Shown piece by piece: positions 9,953-55,002 of a DNA stretch of 64,000 nucleotides. Within the stretch, counting starts at the first letter, position 1. Each line of letters starts with the position of its first letter. This DNA is from Tichowtungia aerotolerans (GTDB lineage Bacteria > Verrucomicrobiota > Kiritimatiellia > Kiritimatiellales > Tichowtungiaceae). Made by a program: the position numbers and the translations under genes. The stretch covers positions 3,476,900-3,540,899 of the forward strand of contig NZ_CP047593.1 in NCBI RefSeq assembly GCF_009905215.1, in the 5' to 3' direction. The notes beneath the pieces are model-generated. The model made no database searches. It was given only the letters and a program-made list of their open reading frames with translations, and had not been told where the DNA came from.

Positions 9953-9971
9953 GGTTCCAACCCTTGGAAAA
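9953..9971. repeat. palindromic repeat copy (TTCCAA-CCC-TTGGAA)
   Basis: Exact arms with a CCC centre, first of three copies upstream of cstA. Confidence 0.85.
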
Positions 9972-9984
9972 ATATTGAACTGTC

Positions 9985-10002
9985 TTTCCAAACATTGGAA
10001 AA
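9985..10002. repeat. palindromic repeat copy (TTTCCAA-ACA-TTGGAAA)
   Basis: Perfect seven-base arms, 30 bases centre to centre from the previous copy. Confidence 0.88.
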
Positions 10003-19560: not shown

Positions 19561-19591
19561 CCCCGGTTTTCCAGAAATTGGAAAACCGGGG
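19561..19591. terminator. perfect hairpin built on the palindromic repeat, after the porin gene
   Basis: CCCCGGTTTTCCA pairs with its exact complement around a GAAAT loop, a 13-pair stem containing the repeat arms. No U tract follows on the plus strand (GATCAAACG), so it is a terminator or a transcript-end stabiliser. Confidence 0.7.
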
Positions 19592-33715: not shown

Positions 33716-33735
33716 GGTTTCCAATCTTTGGAAAC
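33716..33735. repeat. palindromic repeat copy after tkt (exact)
   Basis: GTTTCCAA-TCT-TTGGAAAC, eight-base arms, five bases after the stop codon. A degenerate copy, TTCCGAACCTCGGAA, follows at 33741-33755. Confidence 0.85.
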
Positions 33736-33760: not shown

Positions 33761-33801
33761 GGGCCGGATTTTTCCAAACCTTGGAAAATCCGGCCCGTTT
33801 T
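33761..33801 (+). terminator. intrinsic terminator of tkt built on the palindromic repeat
   Basis: GGGCCGGA and TCCGGCCC flank an exact repeat core (TTTTCCAA-ACC-TTGGAAAA), giving a stem of about 16 pairs followed by CGTTTTG. Confidence 0.88.
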
Positions 33802-36360: not shown

Positions 36361-37113
36361 TCAATCCTGATGAAACAGAACCAGCCCGGATTCGCGCAGG
36401 CTCATAAAGTCATCGACTCCCTCTCGGGTTTTGCGTCCGATAATCATATGGTCCAGGACCGTGATTTCCATCATGTGTCCAGCCTCCACCAGCTTGCGGG
36501 TGACTTTAATATCCTGAGCCGACGGCGACGGATCGCCCGACGGATGGTTGTGCGCGAGAATCACGTGTGCCGCTGAATGCTGAACCGCCGGCTTAAAAAT
36601 TTCACGCGGATGAACCAGGCTTGAATTCAGCGTTCCTCTCGACACTTCGCACGGCGGGACCATTAAACGATTCTTAATATCCAGGAGCAGTACCCAGAAC
36701 ACTTCGCGATCCAGCCCTCGGGCGCGCTCGCGCAAAACAGCAGCAGCTTCTTCCGGCGATGCAATACGCGGGTTCTCACCGACGTTTTCCTGAACCAGCC
36801 TTCGCCCCATTTCGAGCGACGCTTTCAGAATTTTTGCTTTTTCCTTACCAACGCCGCGGATTTTCTGAAGCTCTGCTGCGGATGCCCGGGACAACGCGCT
36901 GAGCGATCCGTATTGAAGCAGAAGCATTTCCGCCAGTTCAACCACGTTGAGCCCGGCCACGCCGGTCCGGAGAATCAGCGCCAGCAAATCGCTCTCCGAA
37001 AGGTTTTCCGGACCGACCCGATCGAATTTCTCGCGCGGTTGCAGTGCCTTGGGCAAATCTTTCACCCGCACCCGATAGACTTCGATCCCCTCTCTGACGC
37101 ACTTTCCAATCAC
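36361..37113 (-). CDS. radC: RadC-family JAB-domain protein
   Basis: This 250-residue protein has an N-terminal helix-hairpin-helix region (LSALSRASAAELQKIRGVGK) and a C-terminal JAB metalloprotease-like domain with HNHPSGDPSPSAQD and the upstream Glu in the REIFKPAV region. The historic DNA-repair role is doubtful; the biochemical activity is not established. The frame opens at a GTG at 37113 encoding VIGK, and TATAAC stands seven bases before it, arguing for a leaderless GTG start. A later GTG near VRVKDLP is an alternative. The palindromic repeat straddles the first start codon. Confidence 0.88.
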   Translation of the reverse strand: MIGKCVREGIEVYRVRVKDLPKALQPREKFDRVGPENLSESDLLALILRTGVAGLNVVELAEMLLLQYGSLSALSRASAAELQKIRGVGKEKAKILKASLEMGRRLVQENVGENPRIASPEEAAAVLRERARGLDREVFWVLLLDIKNRLMVPPCEVSRGTLNSSLVHPREIFKPAVQHSAAHVILAHNHPSGDPSPSAQDIKVTRKLVEAGHMMEITVLDHMIIGRKTREGVDDFMSLRESGLVLFHQD

Positions 37114-37120
37114 TGAAAAA
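37103..37120. repeat. palindromic repeat copy straddling the radC start
   Basis: On the gene strand: TTTTTCA-GTGA-TTGGAAA, left arm lacking one C. The putative GTG start lies in the centre and TATAAC abuts the left arm. Confidence 0.6.
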
Positions 37121-37149
37121 GTTATAACAAATCATTATCAACTTGAAAA
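37121..37149 (-). promoter_or_regulatory. candidate leaderless promoter of radC
   Basis: TATAAC at 37121-37126, then seven bases to the GTG. The -35 at 17 bases (TTTTCA) is weak and the whole region is AT-rich. Confidence 0.5.
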
Positions 37150-38041: not shown

Positions 38042-39328
38042 TCAGCGCCTGCGGCGGGACGGAACCGAGAGCGTTCCATTAAAAAACTCAATAATATGCC
38101 CTTTTTCGACCAGCCATCGAATGGGGTTGAGAATTTCATGAGCTCTCTCTGAATCTTTTTCCGCACCGGGACGCAGTCCTTCCACCAGCTGCAACCGGGT
38201 TGAACCGGGATGATCAGCCAGAAACTCGAGAATAGCCCGGATTGTATCCACTGCCGCTTCCGGCGCGATGGGATCCGGCTTCACCGCGGTAATAAAATTA
38301 ATGTTTTTCCCCGCCTTAAACGTATAGAGGTGAAGGTGCCGGAATGCCGCGCGCATGGCAAATGCGAGCGAAATCGGGAAACGGCTTTCCTGCTGCCAGG
38401 CTTCGCGCACCATCCGGATCAGATTGTAGTCTTTAATTCTGCGGGCGAGAGAGGATGGCAACACCGCGCGGGTCACTTCCTCAATCTCAGCTTCGGCGAT
38501 ATGGGTTTTCACATACTCTTCAGCCTGCAGCAGTGAAAACTCTTTGCCGCCGTCTTTGAGGCGGTAAACCGTTTTTTTAGAAGCGTCCTGCTTCCACTGC
38601 TCGATCAACTCTTCGTCGCGAACCGTCTGTACTTTTTCCTTAAAGCGCTCAAACGGCATCCCGGCATAACTGGTGCGGTGGATTTCTGCCAGACGATCGG
38701 TATAGCTGTGATGATTCGGCGGCCCGATCAGAATGTCGTCAATTTTTCCAATCATTGGAAAAACTCCGGACGGCGTTTCAACTTCGATCTCCTCAATCTC
38801 GAAAAAATCCTCCAGATGATTGTCCAGCAGCTGCCGCAACAGCACATCGCGATCGGTTGCAACCATTTTGGAGCGTTTCCCCTGATACAGCTTGAAGTCT
38901 TCAGCACCCGGCTCGACTTCCAGCTTCACCAAATGGCCGCGCGGGTCGGACAGGAAAATATGCGCAAGATCAATCAACGGATAGGCACGTTTGGAGTGAT
39001 GAATCTGGCGGACCAGCGACGATAATCGTTTCTGTTCCGGCAGGAACTTAATCGTCACCGGAAGGTCCACTTTGGCCGACCGAGGGCGAACCTCCCGAGG
39101 CTTCCTGTCATGATGGGATGGAGGTCGCCGACCGGAACGCGGAGAGCTGTCTCGGCGCTCCCGGCGCTCGCCACCGCGACGCGGCGGGCGGCCCGAGCGC
39201 TCCTCAACGGCATGATAGTGGTTTTCACCCGGCTTTTTCTTTGCCCATTGGGGCACGAAGTTAAGATCGAGGAGAATATCCTCGTCAGGCCGGCCGGCAT
39301 TTGTCCTCGTTGTACTGTGTTCAGACAT
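38042..39328 (-). CDS. conserved-looking hypothetical protein with Arg-rich disordered N-terminus
   Basis: The 428 residues begin with about 90 of low-complexity Arg/Ser/Pro/Glu sequence (ERSGRPPRRGGERRERR) that looks disordered and could bind nucleic acid. The remainder is a folded, mostly helical region (SSLVRQIHHSKRAYPLIDLA, DVLLRQLLDNHLEDFFEIEE) with a C-terminal stretch resembling a winged helix (LEFLADHPGSTRLQLVEGLR, WLVEKGHIIEFFNGTL). I do not recognise the family. RNA or DNA binding is only an inference. It is divergent from another unknown gene at 39406, sharing a 77-base promoter space. Confidence 0.75.
   Translation of the reverse strand: MSEHSTTRTNAGRPDEDILLDLNFVPQWAKKKPGENHYHAVEERSGRPPRRGGERRERRDSSPRSGRRPPSHHDRKPREVRPRSAKVDLPVTIKFLPEQKRLSSLVRQIHHSKRAYPLIDLAHIFLSDPRGHLVKLEVEPGAEDFKLYQGKRSKMVATDRDVLLRQLLDNHLEDFFEIEEIEVETPSGVFPMIGKIDDILIGPPNHHSYTDRLAEIHRTSYAGMPFERFKEKVQTVRDEELIEQWKQDASKKTVYRLKDGGKEFSLLQAEEYVKTHIAEAEIEEVTRAVLPSSLARRIKDYNLIRMVREAWQQESRFPISLAFAMRAAFRHLHLYTFKAGKNINFITAVKPDPIAPEAAVDTIRAILEFLADHPGSTRLQLVEGLRPGAEKDSERAHEILNPIRWLVEKGHIIEFFNGTLSVPSRRRR
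38743..38763. repeat. palindromic repeat copy inside the Arg-rich protein gene (exact)
   Basis: TTTTTCCAA-TCA-TTGGAAAAA, nine-base perfect arms; encodes FPMIGK on the coding strand, a third reading frame compared with topB. Confidence 0.9.
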
Positions 39329-39405: not shown

Positions 39406-41118
39406 ATGAATACACAAGAAATCAACGATAATCTGGAAAAATACTCATCGGCAATCACTCTGTCGGACATGGAAATTTTTGTATTTCCGGAACTTCTGTA
39501 CGCTCTGGTGCTGGCCAACATCATGAGCCCGCGGGTCTGGGTATGGCGCGATGACCCCTGGTTTGAAAAAATTGATAAAATGTCACCCAGCAAAAAAGTC
39601 AACCGGCTCAAGCAGTACATCATCGACCACTACGAATTTAATCTCGACCTGGACACGTGGGGTTTGACGGATCAGCAGACGGAACTCAAACGTTTTGCCC
39701 CGTTCATGAACCGGGAAACCATCAGCGGCTCCAACGCCCTGTTCGGCTACGAGGGAGACAAACATTACTTCGATCTGGATATCCGCCGCCATTTCGGACT
39801 CGAAAAATACAACGATACCATCATTCCTTACTGGAAGACTGAAACGGTCGAAGCCATGGATGCATTCTGCCGCAAAGAAAATTACCGGCTCGGCGCCGGA
39901 GAATGCGTCTCTCTCTCAACCCTCTACGCAGCCGCACTTTTTATTATCTGCAAGATACCGCTCGAAGACATCTTTCTGATGGCCACTCCGCTCCACTCTC
40001 AGAATTTCATTGCCTACAACGGCGGCTTCCTGACCAACAACCGGCGCATTGTAACCAAAAACATGTGGTTCAACGGAACCGAGCTGACCGACAAGGCTCA
40101 GCGCGCGCTGCGCAATGAGCAGATTACCATGGTCATGAACAACACCGGTATCGTGCACAGCGTTTATGATGAAATGAGCATGAATGCCGATGAATACGAG
40201 CGATTCAAACAACAGGTCGGCGACTATCTCACCTCGCCGATCACATTTGAAATTCTCGCCAACTTCCTCCGCCAGCACTCGCGATACCAGACCTGTTTCC
40301 AGATTTGTCGCGACTGCCACGGCAAAAAGCAGTGGATTCCCGCAGAGCGCGCCTATGCATATGAACACGCCGGACCGTATAAAGTAAGCGATAACACCCG
40401 TGACAAACTGCTCGCCGACATCGACTGCGACGAGTTCTACTGCGAACCGATGAGCGACCGCATCTGCCTCAATCGCCTCGAAGAGTTCTTTCACAACAAC
40501 CCGATCGAGCATTACGACAGCCAAAGCATGATGGAACTCGGCAAAAAACTCGAATGCACCAGCGAGCATAAAAATGAAATGCTCTGCGCCCTGGCCGGAT
40601 TTGTTCATCTGGATCCTGAATTTCCAGACTCCGGAAATAAAATTTCCAAACCTTGGAAAAAGCTGGAACTGACACCGCAAATGGACCGCGAGGAAATGAT
40701 TGCGTACGTGGAATCAATGCGTTCCGAAAACCCATCAGCCGATCTGTCGTTCTATGCCCTGCGCGACATGAGCCGCTGCGAATGGACCCCATTCCTCAAA
40801 GCCGCCACCGAACGCAATCCAGTCTGCATCGAGGAAACTAAAGAAATCAGCGACGAGGAACTTTTCCAAATCCTGGAAAAAATGGAAACCCAATCCATCT
40901 ATGACGAGTCCCGCATTGCCCAGCCGGACGAAGTTTGGAACTTCCAAACCGGGGACGGTCTCGAAAAGGCCATTCTGCTTTCCAACGTTTGGAAAAACCG
41001 GCATCCGGACGAAGACGTTCAACTGGAGATTCAGCCCGACCGGGTCAAGTTTTCCTCCGCCGATCGAACCATTATGTTTGAATCCTCAAAGGGTCTGACA
41101 AAAAATATAACCCTTTAG
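39406..41118 (+). CDS. hypothetical protein with transglutaminase-like core, rich in embedded palindromic repeats
   Basis: This 570-residue soluble protein has a segment LGAGECVSLSTLYAAALFII with TPLHSQNFIAYNGGFLTNN some 35 residues later. This resembles the Cys-helix and His strand of transglutaminase-like folds, though the third catalytic residue is not clear. A C-x2-C motif (CRDCHGKKQW) is near residue 306. The C-terminal quarter (from about residue 405) carries five palindromic repeats and low-conservation linkers. GAGGA precedes the ATG. I know no named family. Divergent from the Arg-rich protein gene. Confidence 0.7.
   Translation: MNTQEINDNLEKYSSAITLSDMEIFVFPELLYALVLANIMSPRVWVWRDDPWFEKIDKMSPSKKVNRLKQYIIDHYEFNLDLDTWGLTDQQTELKRFAPFMNRETISGSNALFGYEGDKHYFDLDIRRHFGLEKYNDTIIPYWKTETVEAMDAFCRKENYRLGAGECVSLSTLYAAALFIICKIPLEDIFLMATPLHSQNFIAYNGGFLTNNRRIVTKNMWFNGTELTDKAQRALRNEQITMVMNNTGIVHSVYDEMSMNADEYERFKQQVGDYLTSPITFEILANFLRQHSRYQTCFQICRDCHGKKQWIPAERAYAYEHAGPYKVSDNTRDKLLADIDCDEFYCEPMSDRICLNRLEEFFHNNPIEHYDSQSMMELGKKLECTSEHKNEMLCALAGFVHLDPEFPDSGNKISKPWKKLELTPQMDREEMIAYVESMRSENPSADLSFYALRDMSRCEWTPFLKAATERNPVCIEETKEISDEELFQILEKMETQSIYDESRIAQPDEVWNFQTGDGLEKAILLSNVWKNRHPDEDVQLEIQPDRVKFSSADRTIMFESSKGLTKNITL
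40621..40637. repeat. palindromic repeat copy inside 39406 gene
   Basis: TTTCCA-GACTC-CGGAAA, one mismatch; read as FPDSGN. Confidence 0.55.
40643..40660. repeat. palindromic repeat copy inside 39406 gene (exact)
   Basis: TTTCCAA-ACC-TTGGAAA; read as SKPWK, only five bases after the previous copy. Confidence 0.85.
40861..40881. repeat. palindromic repeat copy inside 39406 gene
   Basis: TTTTCCA-AATCC-TGGAAAA; read as FQILEK. Confidence 0.75.
40933..40949. repeat. reverse-polarity palindrome inside 39406 gene
   Basis: GTTTGGAACTTCCAAAC: the arms appear in the opposite order (TTGGAA first) with a one-base centre; read as WNFQT. Confidence 0.6.
40978..40997. repeat. palindromic repeat copy inside 39406 gene (exact)
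   Basis: CTTTCCAA-CGT-TTGGAAAAA; read as SNVWK. Confidence 0.85.
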
Positions 41119-50847: not shown

Positions 50848-50876
50848 GCCGGTTTTCCAAATATTGGAAAACCGGC
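50848..50876. terminator. perfect hairpin built on the palindromic repeat, end of the GH88 operon
   Basis: GCCGGTTTTCCAA pairs exactly with its complement around ATA: a 13-pair stem in which the repeat core is extended by GCCGG/CCGGC. Only CCTTCCTTGCTT follows, so the U tract is weak. Confidence 0.75.
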
Positions 50877-51309: not shown

Positions 51310-51348
51310 AACGTCCGGATTTTCCAGTGGATGGAAAACCCGGACGTT
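51310..51348 (-). terminator. terminator between folB and accA built on the palindromic repeat
   Basis: AACGTCCGG and CCGGACGTT flank TTTTCCA-GTGGA-TGGAAAA. On the minus strand it is followed by TTCTTTTTCC, so it mainly serves accA, but it may work both ways. Confidence 0.85.
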
Positions 51349-51351
51349 CTG

Positions 51352-51368
51352 TTTCCAAAGCATGGAAA
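51352..51368. repeat. palindromic repeat copy near the accA end
   Basis: TTTCCA-AAGCA-TGGAAA, directly next to the terminator and followed by a short ACGCAATACG element. Confidence 0.6.
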
Positions 51369-51381
51369 TACGCAATACGTT

Positions 51382-54270: not shown

Positions 54271-54966
54271 TTACTGAACCAGACTTCGCACCGCTTTTTC
54301 AGCAGCAACTTTTTCGGCCTCGCGCCGGCTGCGGCCATCGCCCCGGAAAACAAACGTGGAAACTGTCACCTTCACCTTAAACCGGCGATCGTGATCAGGC
54401 CCGCTCTCTTCAACGACTGAATATTCGGGAATACCAAACCCCTTTTTCTGAGCGAACTCCTGAAGGGTTCCCTTCGGATTCAGCATCGCCGGTTCCGTAT
54501 TTTCCAAAACCTGGAAAATATGCCGGTCAAAAAACCTGCGGACCGCCTTCAATCCTCCGTCCATCCAAATCGCACCGATCAGCGCCTCCAGCGCATCTTC
54601 CAGATTGGATTCGCGCTCTGCTCCGCCGGCGGCTTCTTCGCCGCGACCCATGCGCAGGGAACCGCCCAGATCCAGATCGGCCGCGACCCGGGCCAGCGAC
54701 GCGCCGGAAGCCAGCGCGCTCTTGAATTTGGTCAATTCTCCTTCCGGCGCCTCCGGATGCACTTTCATCAGCGCGTCAGCAGCCAGCAGCCCGAGCACGG
54801 AGTCGCCGAGAAATTCGAGACGCTGGTTGTCGGATTCCACGTCCGGATTTTCATAGCGATAGGACGGATGGGTCAGCGAAGCCTTCAACAGCTGCTTGTC
54901 TTTAAAACGATAGCCGATCCGTTTTTCCAACCCCTGGAACTCTTTCATGCCTGTCTTTCCAATCAT
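54271..54966 (-). CDS. rnc: ribonuclease III
   Basis: This 231-residue enzyme cuts double-stranded RNA in rRNA and mRNA maturation. The signature NQRLEFLGDSVLGLLAADAL and the second acidic site LEDALEALIGAIWMDGGL form the catalytic domain; the C-terminal dsRNA-binding domain includes TLQEFAQKKGFGIPEY. Two starts are possible: ATG 54966 inside a palindromic repeat, eight bases after TGTAAT, or ATG 54948 with GGAAAG from the repeat's right arm as a weak ribosome site. Three repeats lie in or at this gene. Confidence 0.95.
   Translation of the reverse strand: MIGKTGMKEFQGLEKRIGYRFKDKQLLKASLTHPSYRYENPDVESDNQRLEFLGDSVLGLLAADALMKVHPEAPEGELTKFKSALASGASLARVAADLDLGGSLRMGRGEEAAGGAERESNLEDALEALIGAIWMDGGLKAVRRFFDRHIFQVLENTEPAMLNPKGTLQEFAQKKGFGIPEYSVVEESGPDHDRRFKVKVTVSTFVFRGDGRSRREAEKVAAEKAVRSLVQ
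54500..54518. repeat. palindromic repeat copy inside rnc
   Basis: TTTTCCA-AAACC-TGGAAAA; read as FQVLEN on the coding strand. Confidence 0.75.
54922..54940. repeat. palindromic repeat copy near the 5' end of rnc
   Basis: TTTTTCCA-ACCCC-TGGAAC; read as FQGLEK, the same peptide as a copy in topB. Confidence 0.6.
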
Positions 54967-54975
54967 TGGAAAAAA
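54955..54975. repeat. palindromic repeat copy straddling the rnc start (exact)
   Basis: On the gene strand: TTTTTTCCA-ATGA-TTGGAAAG. The upstream ATG lies in the centre and TGTAAT abuts the left arm, the same layout as at radC. Confidence 0.88.
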
Positions 54976-55002
54976 TTACAGCAGATTCGTCCGACATCAA
55001 AA
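54975..55002 (-). promoter_or_regulatory. candidate rnc promoter abutting the repeat
   Basis: TTTTGA, 16 bases, TGTAAT, eight bases, ATG at 54966. Confidence 0.4.

Follow-up and report, generated by a model that had tools for sequence, protein, structure and literature searches.

A palindrome over the radC start codon of Tichowtungia aerotolerans as one copy of an abundant, helix-phased putative operator

The start of radC

Does a palindrome whose centre supplies the start codon of radC, with a -10-like hexamer against its left arm, serve that gene, or is it one instance of something larger? The initial annotation described this layout at radC and again at rnc, and proposed that, if transcripts begin there, the repeat would be a 5'-end element at which a bound protein could block both transcription and translation. 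Positions below are those of the window, the whole stretch of 64,000 nucleotides of the T. aerotolerans chromosome that was analysed. The features at radC are:

36361..37113, minus strand: radC (RadC/JAB domain with UPF0758 N-terminal domain; Pfam PF04002, PF20582)
37111..37113, minus strand: radC GTG start codon, at the palindrome centre; ATG or GTG at this position in 12 of 12 genus members
37102..37120, minus strand: radC-start palindrome, 19 bp, TTTTTCA-GTGAT-TGGAAAG, 12 of 14 arm matches
37121..37126, minus strand: TATAAC, a -10-like hexamer whose end lies 7 nt before the GTG; a -10-like hexamer is in the same place in 8 congeners

The open reading frame at 36361-37113 is RadC (Pfam PF04002, E 1.8e-41), and the layout claimed for it, with the start codon in the repeat centre, is present letter for letter: on the minus strand, from window position 37126 to 37102, TATAAC (37121-37126) is followed by TTTTTCA (37114-37120), GTG (37111-37113) and ATTGGAAAG (37102-37110). 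The palindromic 19-mer, TTTTTCAGTGATTGGAAAG, agrees with TTTTCCA-N5-TGGAAAA at 12 of the 14 arm positions. We compared radC among 12 genus members, namely the window's own genome and 11 congeners, and the start codon and the ATTGG arm of the palindrome recur in all 11 congeners. The radC mRNA looks leaderless, because in nine of the 12 genomes the left arm is kept at least in part, a -10-like TANNNN hexamer ends 6-8 nt upstream of the start, and there is no SD sequence. A second palindrome lies 27-29 bp upstream of the radC start (-27 to -29) in eight of the 12; these eight are all of the nine genomes of leaderless type except the window's own, whose radC is without the -29 partner site. In place of the left arm, the remaining three congeners carry an SD sequence and a leader of about 50 nt; the upstream palindromes of two of them are shifted to about -78. 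In these three (loci L072, L076 and L079) the leader, which separates the -10 from the ATG, is GC-rich and contains inverted repeats as well as the SD sequence; it may be an inserted element.

The promoters of leaderless mRNAs resemble that of radC in lacking an SD sequence and having TANNNT 6-7 nt ahead of the start codon, but at radC a putative palindromic operator also overlies the start codon. A leaderless start codon inside a putative operator makes a clear promoter type.

The motif along the chromosome

The window contains 45 matches to TTTCCAN5TGGAAA with at most two mismatches, where 4.4 are expected, and the 3.88-Mb genome, a single contig, contains 508 exact matches to this core, against none for a reversed control pattern. 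In the 1.66 Mb of the genome sampled for site statistics, 716 sites have at least 11 of 14 arm matches and about 439 pass a stricter cut-off; scaled up from this sample, there are roughly 1,000 strict sites per genome. The consensus is TTTTCCAR-N-S-N-YTGGAAAA, and column frequencies from 240 sites show an odd dyad whose centre base is C or G in 88% of the sites. Only columns -1 to +19, about 19-21 bp, are conserved and the flanks are random, so the motif is a site rather than a copied repeat. Elsewhere in the class a genome may have as many as 1,363 exact copies, but many families lack the motif. Of 288 class genomes, those of some families (f1, f2, f4, f8, f10, f52 and f61) carry it in abundance, and those of others (f5, f6, f12, f14 and f19) have it at chance level; copy number is uneven even within one genus (g2), from 620 down to at most 5, and the spacers form dialects by lineage. 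In a wider sample of the phylum the motif is at chance level, and no description of it was found in the literature searched.

Genes were called with a simple gene finder, with start positions therefore approximate, and about two thirds of the own-genome sites lie within predicted genes, at a density of 0.2 per kb; gaps have about 0.7 per kb, whether convergent, divergent or codirectional. Other site-rich genomes show a stronger preference for gaps, convergent ones included. Because sites are about as dense in the one kind of gap, convergent, as in the other, divergent, the motif is not only a promoter signal, and since divergent gaps are no denser than convergent ones, repression cannot be its general function. 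We rejected the idea that sites are confined to one arc of the chromosome, as samples from all round it contain them; neither the origin, near 1.39 Mb according to dnaA and skew, nor the terminus, near 3.3-3.5 Mb, has any special site density.

Several regions stand out locally. A region of about 120 kb (G000:C1:100001-220000, loci L053-L058), in which genes for secreted sulfatases, carbohydrate functions and transport predominate, has four strict sites where the average density would give about 30, which suggests recent acquisition or a different constraint. Two low-GC, island-like regions were also seen, G000:C1:3596900-3616899 (GC 0.45), which is without palindromes, and 3836900-3876899 (GC 0.40-0.41). 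Within the window, the palindromes at 33770-33788, 19567-19585, 51320-51338 and 50853-50871 sit in GC-rich hairpins, some with terminator-like T runs.

Conservation was measured against the congener G032. For 14 gene-internal sites of that genome with an orthologue in the sampled part of the window's own genome, the arms are 91% identical (n=175). The genes in question would lead one to expect 79%, and identity of the 5-bp spacer is 74%. In the reverse direction, own-genome sites compared with G032 have arms 86% identical against 76% expected, with two sites lost. In genes, the arms are thus better conserved than the sequence around them, unlike the spacers; these sites are maintained, with the spacers left free to vary.

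The distances between sites carry a further signal, for which the window itself supplies examples (the strand of these palindromes is left unassigned):

38744..38762: perfect-arm palindrome TTTTCCAATCATTGGAAAA inside a predicted gene
9953..9971: palindrome, 31 bp to the next
9984..10002: palindrome, its partner at 31 bp
33717..33735: palindrome, 53 bp (five turns) to the next
33770..33788: palindrome in a terminator-like hairpin (GGCCGGA...TCCGGCC, then TTTT)
40620..40638: palindrome within a gene, 22 bp to the next
40642..40660: palindrome within a gene, its partner at 22 bp
51320..51338: palindrome with a GC-rich hairpin context; the next is 31 bp away
51351..51369: palindrome, its partner at 31 bp

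Pair distances peak at 22, 31/32, 41-43, 52/53, 63, 73/74, 83/84 and 105 bp and onward, and a period scan peaks at 10.45 bp. For pairs 20-65 bp apart the phasing strength R is 0.86 (n=120); it is 0.66 for those at 65-130 bp (n=61) and 0.67 for those at 130-260 bp (n=54), and pairs wholly within genes are phased equally. Rayleigh p values assume independent pairs, an assumption that overlapping arrays break; counting only adjacent pairs with no weaker site between them, which largely avoids the problem, R is 0.62 at 100-150 bp and 0.46 at 150-260 bp. Codon structure cannot yield a 10.5-bp period, while same-face binding of a protein to DNA can, and this phasing points to a signal that acts as DNA rather than RNA. 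A reading of the repeat as mainly a 5'-end element is not supported, given the phasing and given that most copies lie inside genes or in convergent and other gaps alike. Genomes of other families (G087, G056 and G012) have arrays of four to seven sites at about 31 bp (31/32), mostly with unrelated linkers. In a distant family member, seven nearly perfect palindromes at L160:7080-7265 are spaced 22, 30, 31, 31, 31 and 22 bp, and six at L161:6840-6994 are spaced 22, 31, 31, 30 and 22 bp.

Leaderless starts, rnc and the case for radC

The window's own genome has a genome-wide class of leaderless genes, recognized by a TANNNT that ends 6-7 nt ahead of the start in 11.7% of genes without an SD sequence, against a background of about 1% per position. 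The existence of this class, into which radC fits in nine of 12 genus members, favours the supposition that a radC transcript starts at the start codon, and thus looks leaderless. Palindromes keep phase with leaderless starts (R=0.51, n=30, p about 4e-4), clustering between -27 and -31 and again at +2, and show no phasing to other starts (R=0.11, n=133).

A search of 43% of the genome found seven predicted genes whose start codon falls at the centre of a palindrome: radC, rnc, a dihydropteroate-synthase-like gene (folP-like), aroC, a Schlafen/HTH gene, and genes for a periplasmic binding protein and an RluA-type protein. Five of them (radC, rnc with its start in doubt, folP-like, aroC and Schlafen/HTH) also have a -10-like hexamer 6-8 nt upstream, so that the succession of -10, repeat and start codon for which the initial annotation had suggested looking does recur. 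A palindrome-like sequence about 31 bp upstream is found at the folP-like, aroC and Schlafen genes as well.

The second gene originally named, rnc, is the weaker parallel. Its features are:

54271..54966, minus strand: rnc (ribonuclease III), longest frame; Pfam PF14622, PF00636, PF00035
54975..54980, minus strand: TGTAAT, a -10-like hexamer; the rnc frame has its first ATG 8 nt further on
54955..54973, minus strand: palindrome TTTTCCAATGATTGGAAAG upstream of rnc, next site 32 bp away
54946..54948, minus strand: second in-frame ATG, the probable real rnc start, conserved in the genus
54923..54941, minus strand: second palindrome, within the first rnc codons (AGTTCCAGGGGTTGGAAAA), 32 bp from that at 54955; partly kept in relatives

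The string given for rnc is exact on the minus strand, with TGTAAT (54975-54980), TTTTTCCA, ATG (54964-54966) and ATTGGAAAG, and both the palindromes and the -10-like sequence recur in relatives. The codon taken as the start is what fails: it is GAC, ATC or AAG in congeners L102, L104 and L103, and the start conserved in the genus is the next in-frame ATG (ATGAAAAAGTTCCAG..., window 54946-54948). The original choice of rnc start codon is therefore probably wrong.

With sites so common, the radC copy might have no role specific to that gene, its AATG or AGTG spacer merely happening to supply a start codon. In its favour, roughly 439 strict sites lie in 1.66 Mb, the genes with centred starts are functionally unrelated, and three congeners do with a leader and an SD sequence in place of the left arm. 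Against it, the ATG, the -10 and some or all of the left arm hold their relative places in nine of 12 genomes, and eight congeners add a site at -27 to -29; we regard this explanation as unlikely, if worth keeping in mind.

A putative operator and its candidate binders

The reading we prefer, at a probability of about 0.6, is that the palindrome is the operator of a putative abundant, homodimeric DNA-binding protein of this class, cooperative and of a global or nucleoid type, and that at radC a dimer would cover +1 and block transcription. Motif, abundance, phasing, conservation and promoter geometry are the observations from which we infer the protein, its cooperativity and repression by it. 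A landing site for such a protein is the most likely identity of the radC palindrome because about a thousand or more helix-spaced copies occur in many genomes of the class. Dimers would occupy sites of 19-21 bp and cooperate with dimers on the same helix face two, three, four or more turns away, and the resulting nucleoprotein structure may bend, wrap or loop the DNA. At leaderless promoters they would take fixed places, at about -29, over the -35/spacer region, and at about +2. The +2 site of radC would span the transcription start and the start codon of the leaderless mRNA, and a dimer bound there, which in relatives would have a partner at -29, should keep RNA polymerase out and so act as a repressor. 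Of the conceivable effects repression is the most likely, since the two positions cover the -35/spacer region and the transcription start, but activation from them may occur instead. A protein that binds DNA would affect translation only by way of transcription. The initial annotation thus caught a true case of a wider architecture: regulation is plausible at radC and doubtful in detail at rnc, and would in both be secondary to a genome-wide, helix-phased putative operator system. The main role is probably global, combining chromosome organisation with regulation, because sites are spread over the whole chromosome, inside genes as well as in gaps of all types.

DNA uptake sequences, short motifs favoured in natural transformation and built up through biased uptake and recombination, are the main rival where abundance is concerned, yet they leave the phasing unexplained. 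Neisseria DUS and Pasteurellaceae USS share with the motif a very high copy number, presence in terminators, dialects and possibly a bias to the core genome. The palindrome parallels them in its hundreds to more than 1,000 copies, many inside genes and enriched in all gap types including convergent ones, in the copies found in terminator-like hairpins, and in its lineage-specific spacers. DUS and USS are asymmetric, whereas the palindrome has dyad symmetry about an odd centre, helical phasing and a promoter geometry; phasing of pairs up to 260 bp apart and phasing to leaderless starts are not expected of uptake sequences, and the 31-bp arrays of four to seven sites also speak against them. Recently acquired genes lack uptake sequences (PMC2397512), with which the nearly empty sulfatase/carbohydrate-type region at 100-220 kb may be compared. 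ComEC is found in all site-rich genomes tested, but, being nearly universal (39 of 41 genomes, with nearly all site-poor ones among them), it does not discriminate. On balance an origin in DNA uptake seems improbable.

An action as RNA, through a 5' or 3' hairpin serving stability or termination, is very unlikely: the palindrome can fold, and a few copies are part of longer GC-rich stems with T runs behind them, but complementary flanks (at least 6 of 8) occur at only 12 of 223 sites, an Rfam search of the window returned only a tRNA and no family matching the palindrome, and the 10.45-bp period is that of DNA. A dispersed mobile repeat of REP or MITE type, as high copy number and arrays might suggest, is already disfavoured and scarcely credible, as copies are not alike beyond the palindrome (flanks random outside about 21 bp, most array linkers different) and orthologous sites stay in place with diverged spacers.

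If the preferred reading of the palindrome as an operator is extended to whole chromosomes, a sequence-specific nucleoid protein would organise them in many Kiritimatiellia-like lineages. It would bind cooperatively, on one helix face, to some thousand or more palindromes in each genome, genes included, and would also repress leaderless promoters at -29 and +2; this larger proposal is tentative and falls somewhat short of an even bet. Bacterial nucleoid proteins mostly bind loosely, and such numbers of sequence-specific sites, helix-phased inside coding DNA, are unusual for bacteria. Should a single protein read the sites, the lineage would be a natural test of chromosome folding by specific contacts, with the site-free sister families as controls.

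Known families offer partial likenesses. Noc and SlmA nucleoid-occlusion sites and the parS sites of ParB are, like the motif, palindromes found chromosome-wide, and the Noc half-site, TTTCC/GGAAA, is similar to the motif arm. They differ in spacing, and the motif has far more copies and no terminus exclusion in the sampled chromosome; the regional bias toward origin or terminus expected of ParB/Noc-type sites is absent from samples round the whole chromosome. ParB/Noc was rejected as the binder, its copy number being unlinked to sites: ParB is found in site-rich and site-poor genomes alike, there is only one in the window's own genome and in most site-rich ones, and the few extra copies do not track sites. 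The genes adjoining the densest arrays include no obvious DNA-binding candidate.

Regulators of the Lrp/AsnC (feast/famine) type bind as dimers to clustered palindromic sites with centres two or three helical turns apart, on one face and with the DNA wrapped (PMC2995911). The motif shares palindromic clusters and this spacing, with peaks at 22 and 31/32 bp, and Lrp is global and nucleoid-like, but the clusters in PMC2995911 are small and of imperfect sites. An Lrp/AsnC homologue is present in 40 of 41 genomes irrespective of sites, its HTH is similar in site-rich and site-poor genomes (a comparison that left out wrong-frame rows such as L217, L221, L222, L226, L228, L230 and L238), and its gene has no consistent sites, so it was rejected as the binder; because this one conserved homologue occurs with or without sites, we claim no Lrp/AsnC membership. 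In the window's own genome, the gene for this single, class-wide conserved Lrp/AsnC-type regulator (L235; G000:C1:831697-831921, minus strand) has a perfect-arm palindrome just upstream.
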